Positions 1,951 through 52,201 of a stretch of DNA of 64,000 nucleotides are shown here, one piece after another. Position 1 is the first letter of the stretch, and every line of letters begins with the position of its first letter. Source of the stretch: Methylomonas subterranea (lineage in GTDB: Bacteria; Pseudomonadota; Gammaproteobacteria; Methylococcales; Methylomonadaceae); assembly GCF_024505185.1 (NCBI RefSeq), contig NZ_JANIBJ010000023.1, positions 1-64,000 of the forward strand, given 5' to 3'. The position numbers and the translations under genes were made by a program. The notes beneath the pieces are model-generated. The model was not told the DNA's origin. It worked only from the letters and a program-made list of their open reading frames with translations, and searched no databases.

Positions 1951-2056
1951 TTTTCAGAGTAACGCTCATGAAGGCCTGGCAATCACCCCGGCATATGAAA
2001 GTCAACGGCGTTATGTCGTTAGTTTTTGGGCGGTTGACACGTGACTTTCAGAGTAA
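1951..2056 (-). repeat. Dispersed ~105-bp repeat, copy 1
   Basis: This segment matches the reverse complement of 46650-46759 along nearly its whole length, with about a dozen differences by eye. The unit is bordered by direct copies of TTACTCTGAAAGTCA (degenerate at one end here). It contains an inverted repeat, TGAAAGTCAAC against GTTGAC-acg-TGACTTTCA. It is too short to code for anything. The copy abuts the truncated transposase at 2019-2102. A MITE-like or REP-derived element is the best description; its mobiliser is unknown. Confidence 0.75.
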
Positions 2057-8800: not shown

Positions 8801-9899
8801 CGGTGACATTACCGTTATTGTCAATGTATTTAGTCACCGGTATTTGCCCATTGAGCAGACGAGCGCGGGCACCCTCGTCTGCTTTGACGCCTAGCCAATC
8901 CAACAGCCGCGGATCGTTACTCGGGAAGCGCACTTCGCCGTAGACGTAGCGGGCGGGAATTTTGGAGGCGCGCAGCAAGGCAATCAACAACGAAGCCTGA
9001 TCGGTGGCGTTGCCGGAGCCGCTAACCAGGGCGGTTGCGGCGCCTTTCAAGGAGCCAAAATACGGTTGGAATTCGATTTGGTTTTTGACGTATTGGTAAA
9101 TCTCGGTCGGCGAGTAGTGCAGTCTTTCGGCGAGGGCCAAAATTTGAGGATCGTTTAGCTTGATTTCCGGCATTGCGTCGTCAAGGTCCGCCGTTTGGTA
9201 GCCGCACGCGGTGGCCTCGGGCTCCGCGGCCAGCGGCGCGTTCGGCGTGTCGTCGGGGGTGAGCGTTGTTGCTTCCTGCAGGGTAAACGTGGGTTGAGGC
9301 TTGGTTGGCACCGATACCCGCGGCGGCTGAAGCTGCTGCAAAAGATTTTGCAGGTTCGCCTCGGCCCGTTGGCGGTCGCCGTCGGTTTTGGCGTCGAGAA
9401 CTTGGCCGAACGCGGTGTCGAGGCGGTCGAAGCGGTCGCGCACTTGTTCAGCCAGCGCCGAATCGTCCAGACCTTGGTTGGCGAGCCAGTCGTCGATTTG
9501 GTAACGGTAATCGCGGAAGCCATCGCGTTTTTGCCGCAACCGCTCGGTGCGCGGCGATAGATTGCTGGTAGCGGAAGGTTCGTCGAGCAGCTGTTGAGTG
9601 GCGTGGTGACCATTGGCGATACCCTCGGACCAGCTGTCGGCTTCGCTGGGGCGTCCGTCGCCGATGTATGTGGCTGCCATGGTCTCGGCCACGGTGTCGA
9701 AATCGAGCATGGCCGCGTCGGCGCGCGGTGGGGCCGGCTTGGCGTGCGGGCTCACTACCGATTCGGTTTTCGCTAACGGAGCTTCGGAAAGGGCAGCTTG
9801 TTTGTCGACATAATGCCATGTCAAGGCCCCCAACGTGACGACCACCAAGATGGCGGCGATTGAAAGGAGCGATGTCGCTTGCGACGTATTGTTTTGCAT
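2814..9899 (-). CDS. Giant RHS/YD-repeat protein with transglutaminase-like domain and variable C-terminal tail
   Basis: A 2361-residue protein starting at ATG 9899 (GGAG upstream). In order: an N-terminal membrane anchor (about 10-30); a charged, possibly coiled stretch (about 120-200); a transglutaminase-like domain (about 240-400) with its His (T-H-V-W-V-E) and Asp (W-I-P-L-D) but with the usual Cys absent (G-N-A-x-D-Q-A-S-L-L); a beta-rich region; and from about 970 a long run of RHS/YD repeats. The RHS core ends with Y-D-P-G-L-G-R-F-x-Q-R-D-P and D-P-L-G-L near 2181. After that lie 180 residues of unrelated tail, the usual place of a toxin domain. The tail ends in a small domain with F-E-W-I-V-D and T-H-R-R-F-I-P-N-G, which I cannot name; His/Arg-rich endings of this type occur in RNase-like toxins. 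RHS shells encapsulate toxins for contact-dependent delivery. The downstream gene is the candidate immunity protein. Confidence 0.9.
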   Translation of the reverse strand: MQNNTSQATSLLSIAAILVVVTLGALTWHYVDKQAALSEAPLAKTESVVSPHAKPAPPRADAAMLDFDTVAETMAATYIGDGRPSEADSWSEGIANGHHATQQLLDEPSATSNLSPRTERLRQKRDGFRDYRYQIDDWLANQGLDDSALAEQVRDRFDRLDTAFGQVLDAKTDGDRQRAEANLQNLLQQLQPPRVSVPTKPQPTFTLQEATTLTPDDTPNAPLAAEPEATACGYQTADLDDAMPEIKLNDPQILALAERLHYSPTEIYQYVKNQIEFQPYFGSLKGAATALVSGSGNATDQASLLIALLRASKIPARYVYGEVRFPSNDPRLLDWLGVKADEGARARLLNGQIPVTKYIDNNGNVTANAFTHVWVEACVPYGNYRGSRNDDSGFHWIPLDASFKETSHADGTTVADVANFSFDYNAYLSKRTTVMPQEALRDQMEALLGKTLAHGGGYRSTIVQKNIDVLPSTLPYEVVNFKDWESGQAETAALPDSHRYFAEITAKNSAGSITLAPSLKLPMAELAAGRLTLSFTQTNTANTAAGKVATWQSGTSMVVPCASGSTYLQTQVRPVFKQEGTDITPIGTYNSVGFCSRNNRLALRLSLNNKTVNQVEYYNIGAHNYHALQLYAFQASNAMLETRSAKLLAAVGSNANPNAQIDATLGEYLHIAGLKYMGYITEAGKTVGKLYGETGDSGHHIGLTSTAMKVEYVFDLPFAVSRKGLLVDVPGGSFRSRNVATGSSNYDSYLLAGYSGSAYESYIWQEQAHVDAVSTVRGLQYARDTGLPVVVLSKSADVDTLLNVGCATSPYNLNYSATVKQNLKDLFINQGYFQVTLPRCLINYDGWAGAVWIAEKASLDGQRNLLSAETSYTISGQYLTAQGGYSLSTPISNTYSSWLNTGYQGVFKPATTNFLTVGSVTNSNLKLNLVNSYGGINTGNVATNSSFGGDPVNLVSGNLYHPERDFTIKGRGGLDLVFERTYNSNVRKDGPLGYGWTHSFNHQLQFFDEDANGKVDTAIWIDGTGAANKLTVAGTAAGVPVNTNLTPQAGLRVSAKREANGEYSLKEKSGLTFFFQNVAGTARQTANLTRVLDRNGNTLTFVYSAGNLFTATDGIGRSLHFWYDNGGSHITRITDWAGRTYRYTYDSRGDLVKYESSEMVAGSRAGSTSYAYYQAADGTNLDHALKAYTRPNGNAMQFEYYANGKTFRHTDSQGHSYTFRYNKFRRETTTVDERGVSQTHLFNEYGQPLQQWQGDGSRLVYEYQDTANPLSETRRRDALGHAVQYSYDAIGNVTVMTQPDGSTVTYQDYNAFNLPTKIKDVNGNVTLYRYDANGNRTETIALKPGVHTTTPTASQIAAWTIQSYDANGNLTRATRVKDFATKTGPYIEYHYDAQGLNPVSVKRCGLQQLGGALAQQCSSANQVFDNLGRPTTAVDTRFYPAETRYNADDQITRATDAIGQWRDFAYDNNGNAIGASLAGFDAQGNYRLLQQQVAEYDSLDRPVVQRDSAGHATRTAYDETGNAVKITNPDGYSIRFERDAVGRPTRAFDAQGNAVTTEYDLAGRPVKTTDPNGLVSQYAYYDKTGNGRLRRLTSPDGRYTDYFYDANGNVIRSVDNGGRETLTQYDALNRPVKTVGPVHDALGLTGIRQVTETQYTALGDLQTVRAGYRAADGTETLSTQASYVYDDFGRVIEQSDALGHVTRWVYDGHGLPVRRESANGHIVEWTYDHARGGLLTRQTARLKDTDPAPHVTDYSYDALGQLTHVDAPEVSYDYTYDNAQRLATATDNRGNKTLTYRHSPGGLLDSLEDNEGWRQDFLYDAVGRLSAIQAPGGAQANFIFDAGGRLRETTMPNGYRSLYRYSAGGDLEELVNRAAGGAEVSRHSYGYDTLGRRNRHLEVIAGTSTDYRYQYDTLDRLREVRSQNDTASTLLEAYQYDAYGNRRQRTAQDGSVRRYLYDATQQLTQVRSGSDTGGILTGYSYDEVGNQILQLSADFLILDYDALDRLALVRTIGTSIATEHYRYDHQDRRIETLTGGTPKRFVYAGQTLLSEYGADWNSAQAHYAYAGLDRPLIRTTPGDTAYYHADGLGSIVATSNAAGAITASARYDAFGQTIGKTGTIPRYGYAGREPDKSGLIYYRARTYDPGLGRFAQRDPAGFADGINPYAYVGNNPISFSDPLGLMKAVPSMVAVPSYPGSGSVMARLGNIGSEFMTTARETLRVPGVAVSMAPAAVVGDSVAAVLAGGIKAYNSASNYAAKGVGEIENAVLGRMRTGSATKTDSLHSFPNMVDNFVGDATKFSIPTKGPGGLVIRQSELYQVEGGLNSKQGVFEWIVDQGQVTHRRFIPNGQVTGFPNQIPPKP

Positions 9900-9971
9900 G
9901 AGTTACGATCTCCAAGAACGCATCCGTGCGCAGCCCTTTAACAAGGCGCGGCAATTCGGCCTGATTAGGGT

Positions 9972-11651
9972 TTATCTTCCGGTTAGTAGTGTGTTGACGA
10001 CGCCGAACACCACCGCTTCGTTGATACTGGGATTACGCCCGATCTGAACTTCCGCGCCGTCGCCCAGGTTGTCGTGATCGGTATCAAAGACATTGGGATC
10101 GCTGTGGTGGCGGAATTCGTCGAGATTCGAAAGTTGGTCACCGTCGGGATCCAGCCCCGCATCGCCGGGATCGTTACGATTAAAAGCGTGAGTCTTTTCC
10201 CAAGCGTCGGGCATTCCATCCCGATCCGTATCCCAATCATCGGGATAATTATTCCATTCGAGGCGGTCGGGAATGCCGTCATGATCGGTGTCGGCGGCGA
10301 GCGGATTCAACTTGTCGCGCAGTTCGAAATAGCTTGGCACGCCGTCTCCGTCCGTATCGGTTGTCGTGTCGTTTACGGCGATGACGCGCAGGTATCCGGG
10401 TACGGTTACGGAAACACCCTGGCTGTCTTTAAGGTTCAATACGAAAGGATAGGAACCGGCCGCGGAGGGCGAGCCGGAAAGCGACCAGGGTTCAGTTGTG
10501 CTCACCGCGATGCCGGGCGGCAACTGCCCGCCAACTAATGACCAAGCGTAACCGGGCGTGCCGCCGGTTGCGGCTAACGGATACGAAAAAGGAACATTAG
10601 CCAACGCTTCGGTCGCGATCGGATTGCCGCTCAGCCCGGTTGGATTGGGCGTTGCGCTCAAACCGTTTTGCGGTAGCAATTTCCAGCCGTCGGCTTGGTT
10701 CGGGTCTGTGCCCACAAAAGGTTCGACTGCGTCGGGAATTCCATCTTGGTCGGCGTCGGCCATGACTGTGGCCGGGAAGGTGCGCAAGGCGAGCGCCGTG
10801 GCGTAGGCGTCGCCACTCCAACTGCCGTCGGCCGCTTGCTTGCTCCGCAGAAAGGTGGCGGCCTGCGTCAATGCTGTGTCGGTGCCGATCGGCGCAAGTG
10901 CGGCATTCGCTGCCGCTTGCAACGCGAGATAGGCGCTGGCGGTGTTCCGTTCCGAGCCGGTATCGGCGGCGTGATCGGTAAAGCTGCCGTCGCTCTGCTT
11001 TCTGGCCAGTAGCCAGGTGGCGGCGCGCAAGACTAGCGTGGCGGCGCCGCTACGCCCGTCTTGATGTAAATGGCTCAGCGCCGTGATGTTGCTTGCAGTC
11101 GGCAAGATGGCGGGCGTTTGGTTGGCTCCCCGTGCACCGCCCCAGTAGGACCAACCTTGATTCCCAACCCCTTGTCCCGCCGTGGTGAGGTTGATATAGG
11201 CCGCGACGGGGGCCGTGACGCCGGCCGTGCGTAAGGCTTCCATCGCCAAGCCGGAATCGGGAAACCCGCCGCCGTATCCGGCGTAAGCCCCCCAAACCCC
11301 GGTAACATTACCTTGTCCCAACAGAGTTCTGGTCAGACTCAGCTCTACCGTATCGACGCCGGCATCTTCCAATGCGATAATTTTACGGGCCAGGGAATCG
11401 ACGCTATCTGTCTGACAATTCGACAGCCACGCCTGCGCTCGGGTGTAATGAATGCCTTTGTCGGCGCCGGCGTTTTTCAGCGCCGCCAGAGCTTCCGCCG
11501 TGGCCGCCGCACTCGCCCACCCTTGCCCCCAACTGCCGTCGCCGTTCTGGTGTTGGAACAGCCAACCGACGGCTTTCGCGCGGCCGGTATCCTGGTCGGC
11601 TAAAGCGATATTCGATGCACCGGAAACCAGTGCGGTCAGGCCGACGATCAT
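9972..11651 (-). CDS. Secreted toroid-repeat protein with Ig-like and calcium-binding repeats
   Basis: A 559-residue protein with a short N-terminal hydrophobic segment ending A-L-A-D, a likely signal peptide. Residues ~25-280 hold several repeats of the prenyltransferase/squalene-oxidase toroid kind (Q-x-x-D-G-S-W at repeat starts; A-x-A-L-x-A-L-x-x-A). A putative Ig domain follows at ~355-425 (G-G-T-P-G-Y-x-W-S-L...L-P-P-G-I). Then come calcium-binding thrombospondin-3-like repeats (D-T-D-G-D-G-V, D-T-D-H-D-G-I-P-D, D-T-D-R-D-G-M-P-D). It should be exported and bind calcium. The toroid lacks the acidic D-x-D-D motif of real triterpene cyclases as far as I can see, so it is probably a binding scaffold. 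It lies upstream of the RHS gene on the same strand, 72 bases away, and may be co-expressed with it. Confidence 0.8.
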   Translation of the reverse strand: MIVGLTALVSGASNIALADQDTGRAKAVGWLFQHQNGDGSWGQGWASAAATAEALAALKNAGADKGIHYTRAQAWLSNCQTDSVDSLARKIIALEDAGVDTVELSLTRTLLGQGNVTGVWGAYAGYGGGFPDSGLAMEALRTAGVTAPVAAYINLTTAGQGVGNQGWSYWGGARGANQTPAILPTASNITALSHLHQDGRSGAATLVLRAATWLLARKQSDGSFTDHAADTGSERNTASAYLALQAAANAALAPIGTDTALTQAATFLRSKQAADGSWSGDAYATALALRTFPATVMADADQDGIPDAVEPFVGTDPNQADGWKLLPQNGLSATPNPTGLSGNPIATEALANVPFSYPLAATGGTPGYAWSLVGGQLPPGIAVSTTEPWSLSGSPSAAGSYPFVLNLKDSQGVSVTVPGYLRVIAVNDTTTDTDGDGVPSYFELRDKLNPLAADTDHDGIPDRLEWNNYPDDWDTDRDGMPDAWEKTHAFNRNDPGDAGLDPDGDQLSNLDEFRHHSDPNVFDTDHDNLGDGAEVQIGRNPSINEAVVFGVVNTLLTGR

Positions 11652-11788
11652 AGGAATCAGTCTTTCGCGTATTTAAGTTTTCAAGGTTCCCTCGCCTTTT
11701 TACGTCGTTCCTTATCGCTTGACGGTTGGAGCACATGCGCGTCAGCGCGGGGCTTCGCCGGATGAAGAGCGGCAATTTCGGTCGGCTG

Positions 11789-12190
11789 CTAGTTTGCGTC
11801 GAGCAAAATCTCGTTGATAGTATTGAGCTTGCTAGTTGTGTTGCATGCGGCTGAATAAATCTTGACGGGTTTTCCGAGCGCCACCGCCAACGATATTTGG
11901 GAAATCATGACCTTCTGTGCTTCTGATGGGACGTTACTTGGATAAACCATATGGAATATGGGCTCCGCCGCGTTATGCCCCGCACAAGTATTGATGTTAG
12001 TGGCGGCCGTCGGCTCCATGTAAACAAAAAAACCGGCCACGGTTGATCGGGTAAAAGTGACTGCGCCATAAGTAGGCGTCCAGTCGGCCGTCCATCCCGT
12101 TGCAGGTAACAACAGCGCGCCGGTCAACAGATTGCGGACACTTAATTTCAATAGCGTTTTTCCCGCGCGCAGAGCGTTTTTTGTTAGCAT
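11789..12190 (-). CDS. Small exported protein, unknown function
   Basis: 133 residues from ATG 12190 with GGAG upstream. The first ~35 residues form a signal peptide (basic start, then a hydrophobic stretch ending T-G-W-T-A-D). The mature part has two cysteines, in N-T-C-A-G-H and A-A-C-N-T, that could form a disulfide. Between them is a helical pattern, S-x-I-S-L-A-V-A-L-G-K-P-V-K-I. I do not recognise the family. It heads the minus-strand group running into the toroid and RHS genes, with a structured leader upstream (12229-12330). Confidence 0.7.
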   Translation of the reverse strand: MLTKNALRAGKTLLKLSVRNLLTGALLLPATGWTADWTPTYGAVTFTRSTVAGFFVYMEPTAATNINTCAGHNAAEPIFHMVYPSNVPSEAQKVMISQISLAVALGKPVKIYSAACNTTSKLNTINEILLDAN

Positions 12191-12228
12191 GGCTTTATCT
12201 CCAAAGGCCGTAATTTAGGTGAGGTTGT

Positions 12229-12330
12229 TGGGGCACCAAGAAGCGAAGCGGTATTGCGCCGCTGTTCAGTCTTTTAATCATTCGCCCATGTCCACCCGTT
12301 ATTGCTAATGGGTTGGCGTAGCGTGCCCCA
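12229..12330 (-). promoter_or_regulatory. Structured leader region, possible cis-acting RNA
   Basis: A closing stem TGGGGCAC (12229-12236) / GTGCCCCA (12323-12330) encloses ~86 bases. Inside is a second hairpin of the form ACCC-x-TTA/TAA-x-GGGT. It lies 39 bases upstream of the exported-protein gene on the minus strand, as a 5' leader RNA would. I compared it by memory with c-di-GMP, cobalamin and glutamine riboswitches and found no match to their conserved boxes. It may be a regulatory RNA or only a dispersed palindrome. Confidence 0.4.
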
Positions 12331-12712
12331 GAAAAATCGTCCCTTTTCGGGGAATTGACTTTTTGTTCAACTGTTCCGAGGAAGTTTTAGCAGCACGGAC
12401 TTCAAGCAAATAAATCGGGACTTCGGCGGCTTGTTTACTTTGGCACGGGTAATTCATTTTTTAACGGCTTAGTCAATGTGTAAATGGTTGGGTAAGCCCT
12501 TTAAGTCGGAAGCCGAATAGCGCAAGGTGGTCTTGTCTTGTCGGGAACCTGTCCGAGAATTCAGTAGGCACCAAATTCACGCGGATTTATTCAATATCTG
12601 TGTCAGTGGTTTTTCACTAATTTGACACACATTTCACTTTCTATGTCACTCGACCGGGGCTCGGACCGATTGCCGAGTTGCTTTCTTCCGCGCGGCCAAA
12701 AGGAGGAAACCA
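12331..12712. other. Intergenic stretch without a recognisable gene
   Basis: About 380 bases between the exported-protein gene and the hairpin downstream of recD. I see no convincing coding frame; the short frame at 12622 has no ribosome binding site and weak coding character. It probably holds the promoter of the minus-strand 12190 group, which I could not place. Confidence 0.5.
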
Positions 12713-12744
12713 GGGACAAAGCCGCCCGATACCGCCTTTGTCCC
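12713..12744. terminator. Hairpin downstream of recD
   Basis: GGGACAAAG (12713-12721) and CTTTGTCCC (12736-12744) form a 9-bp perfect stem with a 14-base loop, 23 bases past the recD stop. On the minus strand the stem is followed by a T-rich but interrupted tract (TGGTTTCCTCCTTTT), so termination there is plausible but not canonical. Confidence 0.55.
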
Positions 12745-12767
12745 GTGCTTTTTAAAGCGCGGCGGGT

Positions 12768-14675
12768 TTACTGGATGCTGTTCAGTATGGCTTGCATAAA
12801 TACGTCCGGGCGGCTTTCCAGCAAGGTAAATTGCGCCTTGGCCCGGGTGATGCCGGTATAGACCAGTTCGCGGGTGAGCACGGGACCCGAGGTTGCGGGC
12901 AGCAACAGGGCTACGTGGTGGAATTCCGATCCCTGGGATTTGTGTACCGTCATCGCAAAGGCGGTTTCCGCATCCGGCAAGCGCATCGGCGATATCCAGC
13001 GTAAGGCCTCGCCGCCGACTTCGCTGTCCGGAAATACCACCCGCGGTTTGCCGGCGGCATCGCTCAAGGTAATACCGATGTCGCCGTTCATCAGGCCCAG
13101 GTTATAATCGTTGCGGCTGATCATTACCGGCCGGCCCGGGTACCAGAGGGCGGATTTTTTGCCGGGAAACAGCCATTGCTCGATACGTTGATTCAGTCCT
13201 TCGACGCCCCAGTCGCCTCGGCGGACCGCGCACAACACTCGGAAGCGGTCGAAGGCCCGTAATACATCCAAGGCCCAGCGATCGTAATCGGCCGCATCGC
13301 GCGGCGGCTGTTCGACCATGCGCCGATAATGGCCGTAGCCCGGCGCGTCGCCGGTTTCGGCGCTGATCAGCTGTTTCAGGCGCGCATCGGCTGTATCGGA
13401 CAGCAGCAGGCCGTGCAAGTCGGGATAAGCCGGCTTGTCCCGCAAAATCGCTTGCGCGCGGCCGGCATCGCCGGCGTTTACGGCGCCGGCCAGTTGGCCG
13501 ATGCCGCTGTCGGCACCGAAACGGTGGCTGCGGCGCAGCATCGCGGTCTGCTGGTTGATGGCCGAGCCGGCTTCGGCTGCCGGCAGGCTAACGCCGGCGT
13601 ATCGGCTCAACCAAGCCAGCGCGGCGGCGTCGTAAGCGGCCCGTTCGGCCCCCCGGCATAAATCGCCCATCACCGACCCGGCTTCCACCGAAGCCAATTG
13701 GTCTTTGTCGCCCAGCAATATCAGTTGCGCCTCGGCCGGCAGCGCGTCCAGCAGGGCCGCCATCATTTCCAGATCGATCATGGAAGCTTCGTCGACAATG
13801 ACGATGTCCGCCGCCAGCGGGTTGTGCCGGTGATGTTGAAAGCGGCGGCTGTCCGGGCGGCTGCCCAGCAGCCGGTGCAGGGTGGCGGCTTTTTTCGGGA
13901 TCTGCCGGCGGATGTGGTCCGCCAGCGCCAGATGTTCCAGAGCCTTGCTTATCGATTCGCTGACTCTGGCCGCTGCCTTGCCGGTGGGGGCGGCCAGCAA
14001 AATGCTTAACTTGCGTTGCCGTTCGTCGGCGGCCAGTTGTATCAACAAACTCAGCAATTTGGTCAGCGTGGTGGTTTTACCGGTGCCTGGGCCGCCGGTG
14101 ATGATGGCAAAGCGAGCCCGCAAGGCCAGCACGCAGGCGACTTTCTGCCAGTCGGTTTGCGCGGCGTCGCTGTCGAACAAGTCGTCGATTTCGGCGAGCA
14201 GGGAGGCCGGCAGGCTGTCTCTGACCGGCTGTAAGCGCGAGCCGATTTCGCTGTCCAGAATTTGCTGATATTGCCAATAACGGCGCAGATATAGGCGGGC
14301 GCCGTGCAACACCAGCGGGGTGCTGCCCGCGGCGGGGGCTATCAGACTGGAATGCGCCAGGGTTCGTAGCCAATCGGCCAAACTGTAGGCATTCAGCTGC
14401 GCCAGCTCCCGTATGCAGGTTTCATCCGCGGCCTGGCGGGCTTCATCGGCGGGAATCGCCAGGGTAGGGCCGGGGTTGGCGCCGAGCTTTTCCAGGTCCA
14501 GATAGACCTCGCCGCGTCCCAGTTGATGGCTGACCAGCGCGCCGGCCCACACCACGCCGTCACTGGCGCTTGGGTCCAGGTCGAGTAAAAAACCGGCAAA
14601 CGCGCGGTCGAGCCGGCTCAGCCAACCCAAGGCTACCCAATGGTCGATGCGTTGCAGGACTTTCAGTTGTCTCAT
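12768..14675 (-). CDS. recD: Exodeoxyribonuclease V alpha subunit (RecD)
   Basis: 635 residues from ATG 14675, which overlaps the recB stop by four bases (ATGA), so translation is coupled. An open frame continues upstream inside recB but does not belong to the protein. Seen: a Walker A motif G-G-P-G-T-G-K-T-T-T near residue 193, the Walker B-like V-I-V-D-E-A-S-M, the Q-rich L-L-G-D-K-D-Q-L motif, and the C-terminal T-V-H-K-S-Q-G-S-E-F helicase motif with the closing V-x-T-G-I-T-R-A-K. RecD is the 5'-3' helicase motor of RecBCD, which processes double-strand DNA ends for recombination and degrades linear DNA. Length fits the family. Confidence 0.95.
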   Translation of the reverse strand: MRQLKVLQRIDHWVALGWLSRLDRAFAGFLLDLDPSASDGVVWAGALVSHQLGRGEVYLDLEKLGANPGPTLAIPADEARQAADETCIRELAQLNAYSLADWLRTLAHSSLIAPAAGSTPLVLHGARLYLRRYWQYQQILDSEIGSRLQPVRDSLPASLLAEIDDLFDSDAAQTDWQKVACVLALRARFAIITGGPGTGKTTTLTKLLSLLIQLAADERQRKLSILLAAPTGKAAARVSESISKALEHLALADHIRRQIPKKAATLHRLLGSRPDSRRFQHHRHNPLAADIVIVDEASMIDLEMMAALLDALPAEAQLILLGDKDQLASVEAGSVMGDLCRGAERAAYDAAALAWLSRYAGVSLPAAEAGSAINQQTAMLRRSHRFGADSGIGQLAGAVNAGDAGRAQAILRDKPAYPDLHGLLLSDTADARLKQLISAETGDAPGYGHYRRMVEQPPRDAADYDRWALDVLRAFDRFRVLCAVRRGDWGVEGLNQRIEQWLFPGKKSALWYPGRPVMISRNDYNLGLMNGDIGITLSDAAGKPRVVFPDSEVGGEALRWISPMRLPDAETAFAMTVHKSQGSEFHHVALLLPATSGPVLTRELVYTGITRAKAQFTLLESRPDVFMQAILNSIQ

Positions 14676-44648: not shown

Positions 44649-44705
44649 GCCTAGGTTGGGGATGGCTGTCGGCGGTTTGTCACGCGCGCAGGCGCTCGGG
44701 ACCAC

Positions 44706-45950
44706 ATGCGCATGAATCCGCGCTTCCGCCAATTGTTGCTCGACATTCTGCATGTCGACCCGAACAGGCCGACTCTTGACCAGTTGACCTCCCTATCGCC
44801 GGCAGACTGGCGTAACTTGGTCGACGAAGCCATTCATTTTCGCTTGGCCCATCAGTTACAGCATCATCTGCTGGCCGACACCCGAGCCGGTGCATTGCCG
44901 CCGGCCGACTGCCTGACTCGGCTGGCGGAAGCCGTGCGTTCGGTACTGGTACATAACCTGGGGCAGCAGCATCAACTGCATAAAATGTTGGCCGCCTGCC
45001 GGGACGCGGGATTGCCGGTGCTGCTGTTGAAGGGCTTGTGGCTGACCGAAGTCGTATATGGCGATCTGAAGGCGCGCAACAGCGGCGATATCGATTTAAT
45101 GCTGCATCCCAAGGATATGCCGAAGTTTATGGCTGTTGCCCGCCAGCTGAATCTGACCGCGCCCGTGGCCGCGGCGGATATGGCCGATCTGCTGCGGGCG
45201 CAAAACGAGTTGCCGCTGTATGCCGGCGATAAAGCCTGTTTCGACATTCATTGGTCGTTTACCCGCCCCGGCGAAGAAACGCCGATTGACGAAGCCCGGC
45301 TGTGGCGGCGGGCCGAAACCGCTTCGGTCGCCGGCTTGCCTTGCCAGAGTTTATGTCTTGAGGATCATTTGCTTTATCTCTGTTTTCATACCGCCATGCA
45401 CCACGGCTTTTTGTATGTTGGTCCCAGGGCGCTGTTGGATGCGGCCCGACTGATCGAGCATCCGCCGCGCGCCATCGATTGGGACGATTTTGTAAGTTCG
45501 GCGCAAACCTTGGGTTGGCAGCGCGGCGTCTGGCTGACGCTGGAACTGGCGCGTGTATATCTGGGTGCCAATCCGCCCGGGCCGGTCATGCGGGCATTGC
45601 ATCCCGCGCGGGTGGATGCGGCAGTTGTCGAGGCGGCGCTGGCGGCGATTTTTCAAGGTCAGAACTATCGCGACGCCCTGACTCCCAATATCGTGCGCCT
45701 GTTGGAGCAGGGCGGCTGGCGGCAAAGGCTGCGTCTTTTGGCTGCTCGATTGTGTCCGCCGCGCGAGGTGATCGTCTCCCTGTTGAGGGAACAATATCCG
45801 CATGCCGACCTTTACGGCCTATATGTCAGGCATTGGCGGCGCATGATAGGCGATCATGCCGGCAAAATAGTGATGTTGCTATTCGGCGCGCGCCGGCAAC
45901 GCGCGGAAATGCAAAGAGCGACATTGCTCAAGCGCTGGCTGGAGTCGTAA
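44706..45950 (+). CDS. NTP_transf_5-type nucleotidyltransferase of a peptide-modification cluster
   Basis: 414 residues from ATG 44706 (another ATG at 44712). The core L-L-K-G-L-W-L near residue 108, followed by R-N-S-G-D-I-D-L-M-L (catalytic G-S/x-x-D-x-D type) near 121-130, matches the uncharacterised nucleotidyltransferase family NTP_transf_5. H-W-S-F and H-L-L-Y-L-C-F-H-T-A-M-H-H are family blocks further on. Such genes recur in lasso-peptide loci with HprK-like kinases and in the HPr-rel-A type systems, where they probably add a nucleotide to a peptide or protein; the substrate is unknown. It begins 57 bases after gspD on the same strand and leads into five precursor-like genes. Confidence 0.85.
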   Translation: MRMNPRFRQLLLDILHVDPNRPTLDQLTSLSPADWRNLVDEAIHFRLAHQLQHHLLADTRAGALPPADCLTRLAEAVRSVLVHNLGQQHQLHKMLAACRDAGLPVLLLKGLWLTEVVYGDLKARNSGDIDLMLHPKDMPKFMAVARQLNLTAPVAAADMADLLRAQNELPLYAGDKACFDIHWSFTRPGEETPIDEARLWRRAETASVAGLPCQSLCLEDHLLYLCFHTAMHHGFLYVGPRALLDAARLIEHPPRAIDWDDFVSSAQTLGWQRGVWLTLELARVYLGANPPGPVMRALHPARVDAAVVEAALAAIFQGQNYRDALTPNIVRLLEQGGWRQRLRLLAARLCPPREVIVSLLREQYPHADLYGLYVRHWRRMIGDHAGKIVMLLFGARRQRAEMQRATLLKRWLES

Positions 45951-46045
45951 CCGATTCCCGCGCAATTTGGCGGGATTAAAGGTTTGTGTTAGCATCCGCC
46001 ACTCGGCGACGCAGCCGATTTGTAATAATTCAGCGAGAGTGTAGG

Positions 46046-46207
46046 GTGGATAAGCAAAGCGAGCCAAAAACAGTCGGTGTCGAGGATCAAACGGCCGGTT
46101 CGGACCTCGAATCGGTCAAGCAGGTTTGGAACGCGCCGGGAATCGCGGTTCTGGCCGTGAATCCCGGTACCGAGGTGGGGCCGACTTCCGGGCCTACGCC
46201 CATTTAG
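46046..46207 (+). CDS. Candidate RiPP precursor peptide 1
   Basis: 53 residues from GTG 46046, with GAGAG at 46035-46039. The leader is acidic. The shared motif begins at W28 and continues P31, I33, L36, V38, T42, E43. The tail after T-E is VGPTSGPTPI: Pro/Gly/Thr-rich, with no Asp, Glu, Lys or Cys. It is the first of five tandem small genes with the same motif spacing. A weak hairpin (TCCCGC / GCGGGA, 45956-45975) separates it from the nucleotidyltransferase gene. There is no signal peptide, so export would need the ABC transporter of the cluster. Confidence 0.8.
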   Translation: MDKQSEPKTVGVEDQTAGSDLESVKQVWNAPGIAVLAVNPGTEVGPTSGPTPI

Positions 46208-46236
46208 CGTTACGGTTACTTCGTTCCGGTTTAACG

Positions 46237-46404
46237 ATGAATATCCAGATCCAGAACGATTCGCGCGCCGAATGCGGTCATGCCGGCGATAAGCTTATCG
46301 ACTCTAACGGGAAATTGAGTTGGTTGCCTCCGGCAATGAAGGTTTTGATGGTCAATCGCGACACCGACGAGGTGTTGATCAGCGGCGATGTGCAGATCGA
46401 ATAA
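46237..46404 (+). CDS. Candidate RiPP precursor peptide 2
   Basis: 55 residues from ATG 46237. Motif residues: W29, P32, M34, L37, V39, T43, D44 (Asp in place of Glu). The tail after T-D is EVLISGDVQIE, acidic and without Pro or Cys, unlike the other four. The leader is unrelated in sequence to peptide 1 apart from the motif. No strong ribosome binding site is seen upstream (ttccggtttaacg), so translation may be coupled or weak. Confidence 0.78.
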   Translation: MNIQIQNDSRAECGHAGDKLIDSNGKLSWLPPAMKVLMVNRDTDEVLISGDVQIE

Positions 46405-46419
46405 TCAGGAGTCTTTAGC

Positions 46420-46584
46420 GTGCAAAATTCCGACAACATGGCACATAACGAAAAAATCAGTCAAGCACCGGCCGACAATGTCCCGAAATTGACCTGGATC
46501 GATCCTGAAATTGAAATTTTGGCAATCAATTCCGCAACCGAAATCCCCGATGTATCCGGTTCCGGGCCGTTGCCGGTAGGTTGA
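46420..46584 (+). CDS. Candidate RiPP precursor peptide 3
   Basis: 54 residues from GTG 46420, preceded by AGGAG at 46407-46411 at ideal spacing; an internal ATG at 46438 has no such site. Motif residues: W26, P29, I31, L34, I36, T40, E41. The tail is IPDVSGSGPLPVG. It begins 15 bases after peptide gene 2 and is followed by a clear terminator, so genes 1-3 appear to form one transcript. Confidence 0.8.
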   Translation: MQNSDNMAHNEKISQAPADNVPKLTWIDPEIEILAINSATEIPDVSGSGPLPVG

Positions 46585-46589
46585 GCAAT

Positions 46590-46619
46590 GGTTCGCCGAT
46601 GTTGCCGGCGAGCCTTTTT
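46590..46619 (+). terminator. Rho-independent terminator after precursor 3
   Basis: Stem GGTTCGCCG (46590-46598) / CGGCGAGCC (46606-46614), one G-T pair, 7-base loop, followed directly by TTTTT. It should end most transcription six bases beyond peptide gene 3, and could set a high ratio of precursor to enzyme mRNA. Confidence 0.88.
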
Positions 46620-46649
46620 AGATAGAATGAGAGGGCGAATCGGCGGTAT

Positions 46650-46759
46650 TTACTCTGAAAGTCACGCGGCAACCGCCCAAAATACTAACGACATAACGCT
46701 GTTGACTTTCATCTGCCGGGGCGATGCCTAGCCTTCATGAGCGTTACTCTGAAAGTCAT
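46650..46759 (+). repeat. Dispersed ~105-bp repeat, copy 2
   Basis: Matches 1951-2056 in the opposite orientation. Both ends carry TTACTCTGAAAGTCA as direct repeats (46650-46664 and 46744-46758). GTTGACTTTCAT near the middle pairs with the left-end TGAAAGTCACG-x-GGCAAC. It lies between precursor genes 3 and 4 and is directly followed by a REP-like unit. Confidence 0.8.
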
Positions 46760-46760
46760 G

Positions 46761-46784
46761 GTAGGAGCGACGCACAGTCGCGAT
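46761..46784 (+). repeat. REP-like unit
   Basis: GTAGGAGCGACGCACAGTCG followed by CGAT: same head as the inverted pair at 22052-22119. It sits immediately next to the 105-bp repeat. Confidence 0.75.
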
Positions 46785-46873
46785 TCGCAAGGCCATCATC
46801 GCGCCGGTTTCATGAGCCTTACGTTGATTCAGTTCAATGATGTTTTTATGGTTGATCCGAAAGGGGGGAATGT

Positions 46874-47041
46874 ATGGTCTACGACGAAAAAAAATTGCGG
46901 GAAAAGACTGAGTCGGCCGAGCAAAAGCTTGCGGAGGCTGGCAATCGGGCTTGGCGGACGCCGGAGATGCAATGTTTGGTGATTAGCAAAATTACCGAGG
47001 TACCGGCACCGGTTTGCACGGGTTCCAATTGCCCAACCTGA
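46874..47041 (+). CDS. Candidate RiPP precursor peptide 4
   Basis: 55 residues from ATG 46874, with the strong purine run AAGGGGGGAA at 46861-46870. The leader is highly charged and helical (K, E, Q, R). Motif residues: W27, P30, M32, L35, I37, T41, E42. The tail is VPAPVCTGSNCPT, with two Cys spaced C-x4-C. Being downstream of a terminator, it needs its own promoter in 46785-46860, which I could not place. Confidence 0.82.
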   Translation: MVYDEKKLREKTESAEQKLAEAGNRAWRTPEMQCLVISKITEVPAPVCTGSNCPT

Positions 47042-47106
47042 TGTCCGGCGGTTTACGAGGTGGTCCGGGCACCGGGTTGCGCGCCTAAGTACACAGGAGA
47101 TTCAAG

Positions 47107-47262
47107 TTGTTGGATGATGAAAATACAGTGATTGAAACCGAACAGGTCGATGGACCGCAAACGCCGATTTCGCTCGGCAGTTGGCATACACCTGAACTGA
47201 AAAGCATACAGATCGGCGTGGCTACCGAGGCACTTTGCGATGCTTCAAGTCCTTGCACGTGA
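47107..47262 (+). CDS. Candidate RiPP precursor peptide 5
   Basis: 51 residues from the rare start TTG 47107, supported by AGGAG at 47095-47099; no in-frame ATG exists. Motif residues: W26, P29, L31, I34, I36, T40, E41. The tail is ALCDASSPCT, with two Cys spaced C-x5-C. The leader is acidic. It lies 65 bases after gene 4 and is followed by a perfect hairpin, then by the kinase gene. Confidence 0.8.
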   Translation: MLDDENTVIETEQVDGPQTPISLGSWHTPELKSIQIGVATEALCDASSPCT

Positions 47263-47280
47263 TTAATTAAATCGAAGGCA

Positions 47281-47305
47281 GTTTCCGCGTTGATTACGCG
47301 GAAAC
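47281..47305 (+). terminator. Hairpin between precursor 5 and the kinase gene
   Basis: GTTTCCGCG and CGCGGAAAC form a perfect 9-bp stem with a 7-base loop. No T-run follows, so it is either an mRNA-stabilising or attenuating structure. Such hairpins often sit between precursor and enzyme genes in RiPP operons. Confidence 0.6.
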
Positions 47306-47347
47306 GACCGAAATATCCCAATTCATCCAATCCCGTTTTTCCCTTAC

Positions 47348-48295
47348 GTGCCTGCTATTTCCGTTACGGACCAAAACTCGGTCAAGTTTGCCACCCATCA
47401 TGCCTTCGGGTTGCGCTGGCACATTCCATTCGAATTTCCAAACTTCGCGCCGGTAAACGACGCCTGCATGGCGGATGTGGTCGTCGAATTGGCCGAACTG
47501 CCCGCCGTGGCGGCCGATCCTGAAAATCAGGGACGATTCAGCCGTATTAGTGCCGACGGGGTGATTTTCAAGTTGGAAGGCGTTGCCACTTTTCAGGTTT
47601 GCGGGGGCCGGCGGGTGAGGGTGGATCCGGAAGCCGGCGGCGATATGCAGATGATGAAGTTGATCCTGATGGGGGCGGTAGCGGCTTTTGTCCTGCATCA
47701 GCGGGGGAGGTTGCCCTTGCACGGCAGCGGAGTCGCCACGCCGCAAGGCGCCAGATTGTTTGTCGGTCACTCCGGCGTGGGTAAATCCACTTCGCTGGCC
47801 GCCTTGGTCAAGCGCGGTTATCCGATGATTTGCGACGATTTGGCGTCCATTTGTCTGGATGGCGATGTGGCACCTCGGGTGTTTCCCGGCGTGCCCTTGT
47901 TCAAATTGTGGGCGGACAGCGCCCGGGCCTTGGGAGTGGCAACCGCTGTGCTGCCGCGCGTGCGGGAGCAATTGGATAAATTCATCGTTCCGGCCGCCGC
48001 CGGGTATCAGGTTGCCGACAGCCTGCCCTTGCACACCATCTATCAGTTGGAGGTGCACGATAGGCCGGAGATAGCTTTCGAGGTCTTGCGCAACGCCGCC
48101 AAGTTTCACGCCTTATTGGATCATACCTGGCAGAACCTGACCTTAAAGCGCATGGGCTTGCACCGGATACATTTTCAGCAACTGGTTAGCTTGGCCAATC
48201 GGGTCAGGGTGGTGGCGATACGCAGACCCCGCGAGGGTGCCGAGACCGGCGTGGCGCAATTGATGGAACGCCTGGAAGCCGACTTCCAGGCTTGA
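47348..48295 (+). CDS. HPr-kinase-like protein (HprK-related)
   Basis: 315 residues from GTG 47348; no clear ribosome binding site is seen. The C-terminal half is the HprK kinase fold: L-P-L-H-G-S-G-V (His125), Walker A G-H-S-G-V-G-K-S-T (140-148), then R-G-Y-P-M-I-C-D-D-L (Asp163, Asp164). There is no HPr-type phosphotransferase context, so this is the HprK-related branch found with PqqD-like proteins and in some lasso-peptide loci (e.g. paeninodin, where the kinase phosphorylates the peptide). The Ser/Thr-rich precursor tails are plausible substrates. The N-terminal ~110 residues are not recognised. Confidence 0.85.
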   Translation: MPAISVTDQNSVKFATHHAFGLRWHIPFEFPNFAPVNDACMADVVVELAELPAVAADPENQGRFSRISADGVIFKLEGVATFQVCGGRRVRVDPEAGGDMQMMKLILMGAVAAFVLHQRGRLPLHGSGVATPQGARLFVGHSGVGKSTSLAALVKRGYPMICDDLASICLDGDVAPRVFPGVPLFKLWADSARALGVATAVLPRVREQLDKFIVPAAAGYQVADSLPLHTIYQLEVHDRPEIAFEVLRNAAKFHALLDHTWQNLTLKRMGLHRIHFQQLVSLANRVRVVAIRRPREGAETGVAQLMERLEADFQA

Positions 48296-48369
48296 CGGCC
48301 ATGGCCGATATTGTCGTATAAAGTTGCTTGGCGGCTTCTGTTTGATGAGATGGCTGATACGATGCCTTT

Positions 48370-48696
48370 ATGATCGTAAAGTTGATAGATGATGAGATAA
48401 CAGGAATGGACGATAAACAAATTTTGACCCTGGAAACCCGCGTGGCCCGCTCCGAACGGCTGACGGGCAGTCAGGTCGACAACGAGTGGGTGATGATCGA
48501 TCTGGAAAGCGGCGAATACTACGGTTTGAATGCCATTGCCAGCGACATCTGGCAACTTCTGGTCGAGCCGATTCGGGTGGCCGATCTGTGCGCGGATTTG
48601 CTGCGGCGCTACGATGTCGACAAGGAGCGTTGCGAGGGCGAGGTCTTGGTCCTGTTGCGGCAAATGCAGGAAAAACGCATGCTGCGGGTGGTTTAA
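48370..48696 (+). CDS. PqqD-family peptide chaperone (RiPP recognition element)
   Basis: 108 residues from ATG 48370, or 96 from ATG 48406, which is nearer the usual PqqD length. The PqqD core is clear: M-I-D-L-E-S-G-E-Y-Y-G-L-N-A-I-A-S-D-I-W-Q-L-L, then L-C-A-D-L-L-R-R-Y-D-V and a C-terminal helix. PqqD-fold proteins bind leader peptides and hand them to modifying enzymes. In lasso systems (B1) the recognised leader motif is Y-x2-P-x-L-x3-G; in PqqA it begins W-x2-P. The W-x2-P motif of the five small peptides fits such a groove. Confidence 0.9.
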   Translation: MIVKLIDDEITGMDDKQILTLETRVARSERLTGSQVDNEWVMIDLESGEYYGLNAIASDIWQLLVEPIRVADLCADLLRRYDVDKERCEGEVLVLLRQMQEKRMLRVV

Positions 48697-48714
48697 GCGC
48701 TTTGGTTTTTCCGT

Positions 48715-49212
48715 TTAAAACGCTTGGCCGGCAAAGGTATCGGCGGCGACAAAAGTACTTACCACGGTAAACTCCGCAAACCCGTCGCCGCCGGTAACCG
48801 GCACCCGGTCCACCCGCACCCAGGCATGGGCCTTCATTTCGGTCGGGTTTTGCTTGTTTATGCCTAAAAACAGCGCGTATGGAATGCCGTTGATACCCAG
48901 TATGACGCGCGCCGTCATGGCTTGCGCCAGACATTTCGATTCCCACGGCGTGTAATTGGCGGCGGTTCGGATGGCGCTACCGATATGTTCGGCGCGCATG
49001 ACTTGTTGGGCGCCGGCCAGCGGAATTACGCCCACGTTTTCAAGGTGTCGGCCCAGATATCGCGCTATGTTTCCAAACGGCACGAGCAACAAAATGGCTC
49101 TCATGATGCCCAACAGGCAGAAGGCCGGGCCCAACCAAAGCGTCTCCCGCCAGTGCCGGCGCCGCAGTGCCCTGAATTTACGTAGCAAGAGCTTGGGTTT
49201 GCGCAGGTGCAT
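48715..49212 (-). CDS. Lasso-B2-type transglutaminase-fold protease
   Basis: 165 residues on the minus strand. The catalytic Cys94 is in W-E-S-K-C-L-A-Q-A and His129 in A-H-A-W-V, with Asp135 (W-V-R-V-D) as the likely third residue. A hydrophobic segment lies at about 25-48. This is the Transglut_core3/lasso peptide B2 layout; those proteins cut the leader off a PqqD-bound precursor. It ends 18 bases from the end of the PqqD gene, convergent with it, and is divergent from the ABC exporter (62-base gap). The odd strand means it is expressed separately from the peptides. Confidence 0.88.
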   Translation of the reverse strand: MHLRKPKLLLRKFRALRRRHWRETLWLGPAFCLLGIMRAILLLVPFGNIARYLGRHLENVGVIPLAGAQQVMRAEHIGSAIRTAANYTPWESKCLAQAMTARVILGINGIPYALFLGINKQNPTEMKAHAWVRVDRVPVTGGDGFAEFTVVSTFVAADTFAGQAF

Positions 49213-49274
49213 GGGCGAGTCGGATTTCAGCGCGGTTCATTGAAAGCGCACGTATTTTAAGCCATTTTAGCAGC

Positions 49275-51035
49275 ATGATCATTAATTCATCCCTGACCCG
49301 GTTCTTGCGCGCATTGTGGCAATTCGACGCGGTTTCCCTGAGCTATAACCTGTTGCTGAACATTGCCGCCGCCGCTTTCGAAGGCATCGGATTCATGGCA
49401 TTGTTGCCTTTGTTGAAACAGATTCATCAGTTTCGGGACGACAATTTACCCGCGCCGGATGCCTGGGCCATGCCGGCTTATTTGGCCGAATGGCTGCGGG
49501 CTTTGCCGGCCGACCAGCGCCTGCTGGCGATGTTGTGCGCATTCTTCGGTCTGATCGGCTTGCAGTCGTTGTTGGTGACTTACCGCGAACAGCATTCGCC
49601 GATTTTACAACTGCGTTTTGTCGATCATATGCGGATGGCCTTGTTCCGCGCGCTGGCCGAATCGCGCTGGCGGTTTTTAGCCCTGCACCACAGCAGCGAA
49701 TTCGTCAGTGTCCTCACCAACGATTTACAGCGGGTCGGTATCGGTTGCCTGTTTTTCCTGCAGTTAATCAGTCAACTGGTCATATTTCCGGTGTATTTTA
49801 CGGTCGCCTTTGCCATGTCGCCGGTTATTTCGGTCATGGCCATGCTGATGGGTGTTTTGATGTGGTGGGGATTACGTTCCTCCAGCCGGGCCTCCCGACA
49901 AAACGGTATAGAGATCAGTCGAGCCAATAAAAATTTGTCCAACGACGTTCAGGAATTCATGGGCGGCTTGAAATTGATCAAAATCCATGGCGAGGCTGAG
50001 GGTTATATGCAGCGGTTTTCCAATGTCATGGCTGATCTTAGCGGACACCTGCAAGCGTTTTACGTCATCAGAAGCCGGTTGCAATCTGTTTATCGTTTGG
50101 TAGGCGCGCTGGCTTTGGCGGTTCTGACCTATGTGTCCATAGTGTGGTTGCATAGTCCGCCGGAAACCCTGTTGGTATTGATCGCGGTATTCGCCCGCCT
50201 GCTGCCTCAGGTTGCCAAGGTACATGTGGGCTTTCAGCAGATTTGGAATATGCTGCCGGCCTTCGATAACTGGCTGTATTGGTTGGATGCCTGTCGGGAG
50301 CAACGCGAAAGCCTCGACGATAACAAGGCCGCGCGGACTTTGCGCGACGGCATCGTCTTCAACAATGTCCGTTACAGTCATCCGCAAAGCCGGCAAGTTT
50401 GCTCAGTACCGGCGCTGTTTATTCCGGCCCGAAAGACCACCGTGGTTACCGGCCCGTCGGGGTCGGGTAAAACCACATTTCTGGATTTGCTCAGCGGTTT
50501 GCAAAGGCCGGATTGCGGAAGCATTGCCGTGGACGGCGAGCTACTGCATTCGCAGGCGGGTTGGCGGCGCATGTTGGCTTATGTGCCGCAGGATTGCGCG
50601 ATCTTTGATGGCAGCGTGCGCGACAATTTGAATTGGGGCGCTAACGATATGGCCGATACGGCATTCTGGCGCGCGCTGGAACAAGCCGCCGCCGGCGATT
50701 TTGTCCGTAATTTGCCGAAAGGATTGGATACCTGGGTTGGCGAGCGCGGCGTACGGTTGTCCGGCGGCGAAAAACAGCGTCTGGCATTGGCGCGGGCATT
50801 GCTGCGGCAACCGGAGTTGCTGGTTCTGGATGAGGCCACCAGCGCGCTGGACAGCGACAATCAACAGCTGATTTTCGAGGCGATTCGGGCGTTGAAGGGA
50901 CAGTTGACGGTCGTCATCGTCACCCACCATTATTATGACATTCGCCATGCCGTGGACGGTTACATAAGGGTCGAGCAAGGTTCGGTCGGCACATGGCAAG
51001 CCGTCGATCCGTCAGCCGAGAACTATATCGAATGA
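49275..51035 (+). CDS. ABC exporter, fused membrane and ATPase domains
   Basis: 586 residues. The N-terminal half has about six membrane segments; the ATPase half has Walker A G-P-S-G-S-G-K-T-T (393-401), signature L-S-G-G-E-K-Q-R (495-502), Walker B L-L-V-L-D-E-A and the switch His in V-T-H-H-Y. There is no N-terminal C39 peptidase domain, so it cannot remove leaders itself; the B2-like protein would have to. It likely exports the mature peptides. Its stop overlaps the start of the ATP-grasp gene (ATGA). Confidence 0.92.
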   Translation: MIINSSLTRFLRALWQFDAVSLSYNLLLNIAAAAFEGIGFMALLPLLKQIHQFRDDNLPAPDAWAMPAYLAEWLRALPADQRLLAMLCAFFGLIGLQSLLVTYREQHSPILQLRFVDHMRMALFRALAESRWRFLALHHSSEFVSVLTNDLQRVGIGCLFFLQLISQLVIFPVYFTVAFAMSPVISVMAMLMGVLMWWGLRSSSRASRQNGIEISRANKNLSNDVQEFMGGLKLIKIHGEAEGYMQRFSNVMADLSGHLQAFYVIRSRLQSVYRLVGALALAVLTYVSIVWLHSPPETLLVLIAVFARLLPQVAKVHVGFQQIWNMLPAFDNWLYWLDACREQRESLDDNKAARTLRDGIVFNNVRYSHPQSRQVCSVPALFIPARKTTVVTGPSGSGKTTFLDLLSGLQRPDCGSIAVDGELLHSQAGWRRMLAYVPQDCAIFDGSVRDNLNWGANDMADTAFWRALEQAAAGDFVRNLPKGLDTWVGERGVRLSGGEKQRLALARALLRQPELLVLDEATSALDSDNQQLIFEAIRALKGQLTVVIVTHHYYDIRHAVDGYIRVEQGSVGTWQAVDPSAENYIE

Positions 51036-52201
51036 AAGCGCTGGTCATCGGAACCGCCTTCTTCAACATGTTGTCGTTGCCCGCCCTGTTGCACAGGGCG
51101 GGCTTGCGCGTACATGTGCTGAGCACGGTGAAGTCCATGGCGTGGGTGGCATATATTGCGGAGTTGACCGTGGTCGGCGATCCGGATGAAATGATTGCGA
51201 ATGCCGCCAAGCAGGCCGAGTCCGGTTTCGATTTGGTCGTCGTCGCGGACGACCTTACTCTCAAGGCCATTGTAAATTCCGGGTTGTCGCCCGAGGACAA
51301 GGTCAAACTGTTGCCAGTATTGCAAACCGAGGACTTTGCCCACCTATACAGCAAGATCGGTTTATCGAGAGTGTTGCAAAAAAACGCCATCGACACGCCT
51401 GATTTTGCAGTTGCCGAAACCGCCGATGAGTTGAAGGGGCGGGCCGAACGCATGGGTTTTCCATTGCTGGTCAAAACCGATAGTTCGGGTGGCGGCATTG
51501 GAGTATTTGATTGCGGCGACAGGGCGCAACTCGGCCAAATACTTGAAAGCTCGCCGGTTTATCCGGTTCTGTTGCAACGAAAAATCCCCGGCCGGTCATT
51601 CGATCTGAGCGGATTTTTTCGGAACGGAAAACTGGTGCAGTTCGGTTGTGCCGAGCAATTGGATTTTGTCGGCGGAGCTTTCGGTCCCAGCAAGTTGAGG
51701 CGCTATTACCGGTCAAGCCAAGTGGATGCGAGGGTGAGTGAAGAACTGAATCGGCTTGGCGCGGCGCTGGGAGCCGACGGCTTCGTCAATATTACCTGCA
51801 TCGTTTCCGATATCGATCAAAAACGCTATTACATCGAGGCGGATATGCGGCCGAATGTTTGGGTCGAATATCCGAAATTTATCGGCGACGATCCGGCGGA
51901 TAAAATTCGCGGTTATTTTCTGCATGGGCAATATTACCAACATCCGGACAAAGTGGCGGACGATTCGGCCGACGGGAATGTCTTGGCTTATCTGCCGAGG
52001 ATGAATAACCTTGAAATTCTGACGAATCAATATGCTTGCATAAACTGTTTCGACAATTATGCGGGGCTCCCGCTGTACCGCTGGATGTTTTTACAGCGAT
52101 GGCGCCTGTTCTGCGTGCAGTTTGTCAAACCTTATGTGTCAGCGCCCGTTTGGGGCTATATGAAGCGAATTTGGCAACTCGGCCGCAAAAGCACGGTTTG
52201 A
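51032..52201 (+). CDS. ATP-grasp family ligase
   Basis: 389 residues from ATG 51032, overlapping the exporter stop by four bases. N-terminal Rossmann-like part (M-K-A-L-V-I-G), then the ATP-grasp core: F-P-L-L-V-K-T-D-S-S-G-G-G-I-G near 145, and the metal-binding segment Y-Y-I-E-A-D-M-R-P-N-V-W-V-E near 280. ATP-grasp enzymes join a carboxylate to an amine, hydroxyl or thiol through an acyl phosphate. In a RiPP context they can make ester or amide crosslinks (graspetides) or add amino acids. Coupling to the exporter supports membership of the cluster. The subfamily is not recognised. Confidence 0.85.
   Translation: MKALVIGTAFFNMLSLPALLHRAGLRVHVLSTVKSMAWVAYIAELTVVGDPDEMIANAAKQAESGFDLVVVADDLTLKAIVNSGLSPEDKVKLLPVLQTEDFAHLYSKIGLSRVLQKNAIDTPDFAVAETADELKGRAERMGFPLLVKTDSSGGGIGVFDCGDRAQLGQILESSPVYPVLLQRKIPGRSFDLSGFFRNGKLVQFGCAEQLDFVGGAFGPSKLRRYYRSSQVDARVSEELNRLGAALGADGFVNITCIVSDIDQKRYYIEADMRPNVWVEYPKFIGDDPADKIRGYFLHGQYYQHPDKVADDSADGNVLAYLPRMNNLEILTNQYACINCFDNYAGLPLYRWMFLQRWRLFCVQFVKPYVSAPVWGYMKRIWQLGRKSTV

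Follow-up and report, generated by a model that had tools for sequence, protein, structure and literature searches.

A multi-precursor RiPP locus with lasso-type processing genes, an HprK-like kinase and an ATP-grasp gene, and no recognisable lasso cyclase, in Methylomonas subterranea

Gene content of the locus

The window (the whole stretch of DNA analysed, 64,000 nucleotides) covers bases 1-64000 of contig C23 (78.8 kb) in the 4.4 Mb genome of Methylomonas subterranea, a relative of methane-oxidisers. Positions 44706-52201 start with a PF14907 nucleotidyltransferase gene, followed by five small genes and then by those for an HprK-like kinase and a PqqD-fold protein; next come a B2 leader peptidase, encoded on the minus strand, an ABC exporter, and finally the ATP-grasp enzyme (Table 1). 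Every gene named in the original prediction of a contiguous set is present, each at the coordinates given for it; the lasso-B2-like protease is present as claimed, its strand being corrected to minus. All reading frames of the locus are open along their full length. The type II secretion secretin GspD (Pfam match) lies on one flank and a convergent gene, which we take from its sequence to resemble nadB, on the other. GC content of the locus is 0.52-0.60 per kb, with no clear contrast to the flanks. Promoter and terminator scans of the region stayed at shuffle level, and the hairpin listed in Table 1 belongs to a class that is not significant as a set, because the region has 11 such sites against 11.7 in shuffles.

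Table 1. Features of the locus (positions in the window; G472, the second genome discussed in the text)
Feature	Position	Strand	Remarks
NTP_transf_5 (PF14907) nucleotidyltransferase, 414 aa	44706..45950	+	PF14907, 156.4 bits; G472 orthologue 64% identical
Precursor 1	46046..46207	+	GTG start likely; tail after T-E VGPTSGPTPI; WxxP motif; G472 orthologue
Precursor 2	46237..46404	+	tail after T-D EVLISGDVQIE; WxxP motif; no orthologue seen in G472
Precursor 3	46420..46584	+	tail after T-E IPDVSGSGPLPVG; WxxP motif; G472 orthologue
Terminator-like hairpin and T run, 3' of precursor 3	46590..46614	+	hairpin scan
Precursor 4	46874..47041	+	tail after T-E VPAPVCTGSNCPT; WxxP motif; no orthologue seen in G472
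Precursor 5	47107..47262	+	TTG start, AGGAG upstream; tail after T-E ALCDASSPCT; WxxP motif; G472 orthologue
HprK-like peptide kinase, 315 aa	47348..48295	+	HprK models, all under curated cut-off; 79% identical in G472
PqqD-fold B1 protein / RiPP recognition element	48370..48696	+	PF05402, 72 bits; 82% in G472
Lasso-type B2 leader peptidase	48715..49212	-	NF033537, 89.5 bits (cut-off 33); 69% in G472
HepA/MsbA-like ABC exporter, lasso D type	49275..51035	+	ABC_membrane and ABC_tran; no peptidase domain
ATP-grasp enzyme, 389 aa	51032..52201	+	PF08443, 26 bits (cut-off 21), weak

Residues K109, G110, D128, and D130 of the nucleotidyltransferase are each kept in 8/8 aligned sequences, and H125, K146, D163, and D164 of the kinase in all 39 aligned kinases. 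We equate the latter with the conserved His-Lys-Asp-Asp of lasso kinases described in the available text of PMC9266682. Kinase and nucleotidyltransferase would supply the likely key chemistry, in line with the phosphorylation or nucleotidylation originally proposed.

The best NCBIfam match of the PqqD-fold protein is the lasso PqqD family NF033536 (68 bits, cut-off 80); a second PqqD of the genome lies on contig C38. The "PQQ-type" parts of the original prediction come down to this fold, which is standard in lasso pathways, and beyond it the label is unsupported; no PqqE-like or other radical SAM gene was found among the locus proteins scanned. B2 retains C94 and H129, each shared by 12 of 13 aligned sequences. 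No SipW-like signal peptidase lies between 44706 and 52201, where B2 is found instead.

The ATP-grasp gene is better started at 51032 (389 aa) than at 50993 (402 aa), and the overlap of its ATG with the TGA stop of the exporter (ATGA) suggests translational coupling. Alignment with two distant relatives (22-23% identity) places K148 and E269-x-D-x-R273, Asp replacing the Asn of the E-x-N motif present in both relatives, and the enzyme is assigned as a distant member of the superfamily. Its structure predicted from the single sequence has a mean pLDDT of 38, too low to be of use.

Two further features of the window lie apart from these genes. A repeat with TTACTCTGAAAGTCA stands between precursors 3 and 4 (46650-46664 and 46744-46758, plus strand), with another copy at 2042-2056 (minus strand); genome-wide there are 39 exact copies, which at several sites follow one another in tandem every 94-95 bases, and none of the reversed control. 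The copy near 2042 seems to resemble the beginning of a gene for a REP-associated transposase, so that the repeat may derive from one. Positions 2814-9899 (minus strand) encode a 2361-residue protein with RHS repeats, DUF6531, and a transglutaminase-like domain.

Precursors and their conservation in a second genus

The five small genes have a common leader, [WY]xxPx[ILVM]-x8-T, which is absent from the rest of the 64 kb. All five have W-x2-P-x-[ILM], a Thr exactly 14 residues past the Trp, then Glu or Asp and a tail of 10-13 residues; precursor 3 may start at GTG 46420, with AGGAG upstream, or at ATG 46438. Six frames were scanned for [WY]xxPx10T with a tail of 8-30 residues, an upstream start codon, and a frame no longer than 150 residues. 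The 64 kb gave exactly five matches, namely the five precursors, whereas shuffles of 44700-52201 gave a mean of 0.175 and a maximum of 3 (200 shuffles) and whole-window shuffles a mean of 2.1 and a maximum of 4 (20 shuffles). Judged by sequence, the five are real genes and more than a product of chance. The prediction of a multi-precursor RiPP locus stands, with five small genes of common leader beside genes for modification, leader cleavage, and export. Several features are those of lasso pathways: B1 (PqqD) and B2, the [Y/W]xxPx leader, and a Thr that is penultimate in the leader at the putative cleavage site.

The only close relative of the kinase in 311 genomes of the order is that of G472 (79% identity), the others reaching at most 36%. 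G472 is a metagenome-assembled genome of Methylomicrobium sp., another genus of the family, and the match lies on contig JAGXSU010000016.1; in genome_contigs the kinase pair A1 found one locus, the same contig with identical sequence. Gene order there is as here, with nucleotidyltransferase, three orthologous precursors, kinase, PqqD, B2, and exporter (proteins 64-82% identical), and B2 is again opposite in strand to its neighbours. The set from nucleotidyltransferase to exporter therefore recurs in a relative, as the original prediction proposed to check. The orthologue of precursor 5 has the tail end VVCDASNPCT. For the three precursor pairs dN/dS is 0.46, 0.54, and 0.40, rough values given a dS of 0.9-1.5, and the conservation of small genes that had been set as a test was found for three of five.

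The G472 contig ends inside the exporter gene, which is 77% identical over its first 319 residues; its second half was not found elsewhere in that assembly at similar identity. The absence of an ATP-grasp gene from the assembly is therefore uninformative, and a cyclase or ATP-grasp gene could lie beyond the break. A partial protein 5' of the G472 cluster matched no Pfam family at E 1e-5, and the genomic setting probably differs, given the match to GspD here.

Missing cyclase and core residues

No Asn_synthase match lies on contig C23, where a cyclase just outside the locus had also been looked for; three full-length and four short matches lie elsewhere in the genome. All three full-length asparagine synthetase (AsnB) homologues score higher on the XrtA amidotransferase model than on the lasso cyclase model (1080/272, 285/142, and 534/240 bits). 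Four AsnB proteins of comparison loci have the lasso model on top (280-405 bits), under its curated cut-off of 525, and the genome's own XrtA enzyme reaches 272 on that model. Bare scores therefore separate the cyclase types poorly, and it is the ranking of models that tells XrtA enzymes from lasso cyclases. By this measure the genome has no recognisable lasso cyclase, as the original prediction held for the locus.

For comparison, 41 further stretches with HprK-like genes were used. Genomes of the order supplied 15 and a phylum sample 26 (covering 28 non-own places); the weak kinase matches in G088, G506, and G515 were left out. An AsnB homologue was found in 35 of the 41, a tally of any homologue that perhaps includes exopolysaccharide enzymes, and B2 in 24, with AsnB in 21 of those (tblastn, E 1e-4). 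The six stretches without AsnB comprise two that are short or truncated where a contig stops (L058, L107), two with the kinase only (L106, L122), and two uncut ones (L060, L121) with matches to kinase, PqqD, exporter, and B2 (weak in L060), so that absence of the cyclase is not unique to this cluster.

The kinase tree has 40 rows from 43 candidates, three having been removed by a length filter, and is rooted at the midpoint. The window and G472 kinases form a pair (100/100) inside a set of 21 rows (82/87), and the other 19 rows of that set all come from AsnB loci. The stem of the pair is long (1.75) and the 82/87 fork moderate; the tree is compatible with a phosphorylated lasso pathway having lost its cyclase, but does not prove it.

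Such a loss could also mark a decaying lasso cluster with no product. The cyclase is gone and the spread is patchy, with the kinase at 79% identity or more in 2/311 genomes of the order, own included. This is quite improbable against intact motif residues, open frames, and the same state in two genera with orthologous precursors under the dN/dS values given above.

Some comparison loci have contents of their own. L121 (G886:C1:2328600-2348500), from another part of the phylum, has two kinase matches, PqqD, B2, and exporter at 8800-14000, and the motif scan gave no WxxP precursor there. L059 and L060 (G079, G065) are kinase-PqqD-nucleotidyltransferase loci where a small gene has a Gly/Pro-rich tail end, possibly another peptide system. 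L053-L055 (G014, G023) are lasso-type loci with kinase and AsnB plus, by eye, sulfotransferase-like genes, some of them adjoining small genes that resemble phage tail fibre proteins; a sulfotransferase is annotated beside a similar locus in Thalassobaculum, and similar small genes are annotated as phage tail fibre in Azospirillum.

The comparison stretches gave 31 motif matches. Sixteen with I, L, V, or M at W+5 were kept as reference precursors and 15 dropped, a criterion adopted once the 31 had been seen; all 16 come from AsnB loci and have cores of 15-26 residues. Asp or Glu, the ring-closing residue of lassos, is found at core 7-9 in 15/16 references and 1/8 precursors of the window and G472 (Fisher p 1.8e-4), and a C-terminal Ser in 15/16 and 0/8 (p 1.2e-5); with all 31 kept, the reference counts are 17/31 (p 0.049) and 16/31 (p 0.012), and p values are only indicative as the eight precursors are related to each other. 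The sole acid at core 7-9 is Asp at core 7 of precursor 2. Ser at core 5 or 6 occurs in 7/8 (not in precursor 4) against 4/16 references, and Glu or Asp directly after the Thr likewise in 7/8 against 4/16. With both the ring-closing enzyme and, in nearly all peptides, the ring-closing residue missing, the product is probably something other than a lasso.

A conventional lasso pathway that uses, in trans, an asparagine synthetase homologue from elsewhere in the genome is accordingly improbable. It could draw on the Asp of precursor 2 and on the three full-length AsnB homologues, one of which (C1:192745) does not begin with MCG as glutamine-using enzymes do. The other seven precursors have no acid at core 7-9, and this copy is the one scoring 285 on the XrtA and 142 on the lasso model; the XrtA amidotransferase is 7 kb away from it, and the genes around it resemble glycosyltransferases by eye.

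The ATP-grasp enzyme offers another way of closing a ring. It would activate a carboxylate, C-terminal or of the acid beside Thr, as an acyl phosphate, and once B2 has freed the core N-terminus the products would be head-to-tail or otherwise cyclised peptides. The ATGA overlap with the exporter, the retained ATP-grasp-like motif residues, the missing cyclase, and the frequent acid after Thr all agree with such a role, which is nonetheless unlikely in view of the distribution of the enzyme. At E 1e-6 it matched 5/311 genomes of the order, own included, the other four at 25-26% identity and none an orthologue; at E 0.001 it matched 49/101 relatives, own included, where the non-own matches are at most 42% identical, over short stretches, and many lie in frames of about 1,080 residues. 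A search of the class at E 1e-8 gave no match in the 368 genomes besides the own one (369 in all). None was found in plasmids or, with three queries, in the 41 comparison stretches (tblastn, E 1e-4), and of 32 candidates in a pattern scan of genome_contigs none was confirmed. Two of six kinase-bearing genomes have weak matches. Around three relatives of about 25% identity (L080-L082) and in stretch L083, no B1, B2, kinase, or nucleotidyltransferase match lies nearby. The gene has been seen with this cluster in one genome only, and the G472 contig ends too early for a check. A broader version, also unlikely and a shade more doubtful, has a lasso chassis with ATP-grasp replacing the cyclase, the 10-13 residue cores being ring-closed or terminally extended after phosphorylation and sugar or nucleotide transfer; if true, this chassis would be a RiPP class without described product.

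NCBIfam includes graspetide ligase models, and none is among the 25 NCBIfam families matched at E up to 0.1. The "graspetide-type" part of the original prediction is not borne out. A pathway in which the ATP-grasp enzyme links Ser, Thr, or Lys side chains to those of Asp or Glu is very improbable: such an enzyme is present and 5/8 cores contain an acidic residue, but there is none in precursor 1, in precursor 4, or in one of the G472 cores.

Proposed pathway and comparison with known systems

This is a real and unusual RiPP locus, and it is probably functional. On balance we favour a locus derived from a lasso pathway by loss of the cyclase, with short linear phosphopeptides, perhaps also glycosylated or nucleotidylated, as its products. 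By analogy with characterised relatives, the PqqD-fold protein would bind the WxxPx[ILM] leader of each of the five precursors, the HprK-like kinase would phosphorylate a core Ser, and the nucleotidyltransferase would place a hexose or nucleotide on that phosphate; B2 would then cleave one residue past the conserved Thr, and the 10-13 residue products would be secreted by the ABC exporter. As a guess, the ATP-grasp enzyme would couple an amine to a carboxylate of the peptide, in the simplest case that of the C-terminus. The lack of a terminal Ser, the usual target of lasso kinases, in all eight precursors counts against phosphopeptides, as does precursor 4 with its core free of Ser at 5 and 6. 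The first objection is partly answered by BsfK, a lasso kinase that phosphorylates the internal Ser3 in the available account (PMC10368454).

The cluster is a direct test bed for the action of kinase and nucleotidyltransferase without lasso formation, and it offers five natural substrates together with an ATP-grasp enzyme. In titles and the starts of abstracts, no description of a B1-B2-kinase-nucleotidyltransferase-ATP-grasp cluster was found. Pheganomycin-type ATP-grasp peptide ligases likewise lie beside small precursor genes and could ligate at a terminus; their leader system differs.

The phosphorylated lassos paeninodin, pseudomycoidin, and Bsf share with the locus, in the parts of the reports available (PMC9266682, PMC8498205, PMC10368454), the genes B1, B2, D, K, and in some cases N, a [Y/W]xxPx(L) leader, and a Thr two residues before the core; for example, PsmK phosphorylates and PsmN glycosylates (PMC9266682). 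Unlike them, the locus has no cyclase, no acid at core 7-9 in 7/8 precursors, no C-terminal Ser, short cores (10-13 residues), and an extra ATP-grasp enzyme.

The original prediction called the cluster undescribed. Cyclase-less lasso-like phosphopeptide clusters, the linear polyphosphorylated peptides (LPP), were published in 2026 (Popov et al., 2026; PMC13381572), so the claim holds in part: LPP use another peptidase and are stated in the available text to be restricted to Bacillota. Shared with LPP are a discrete RRE, an HprK-like kinase, an NTP transferase, an MsbA-like exporter, a [Y/W]xxP-type leader, and the lack of a macrolactam cyclase (PMC13381572). The LPP leader YxxPxVLxHQxIxFETxxS is removed by a SipW-like signal peptidase, and the kinase LppK places several phosphates on the internal Ser3 (PMC13381572), whereas here WxxPx[ILM] with Thr 14 residues on is paired with lasso B2, and Ser stands at core 5 or 6 in 7/8. 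The term ATP-grasp is absent from the LPP paper (PMC13381572), and this enzyme is the component that could make the locus more than an LPP-like variant. Phosphorylated lasso pathways may have yielded cyclase-less ones more than once, two such origins being suggested: one in Bacillota, where LPP have a new peptidase, and one in the Gram-negative order studied here, where B2 was kept. On this reading, the cluster would be a B2-processed, Gram-negative counterpart of LPP.
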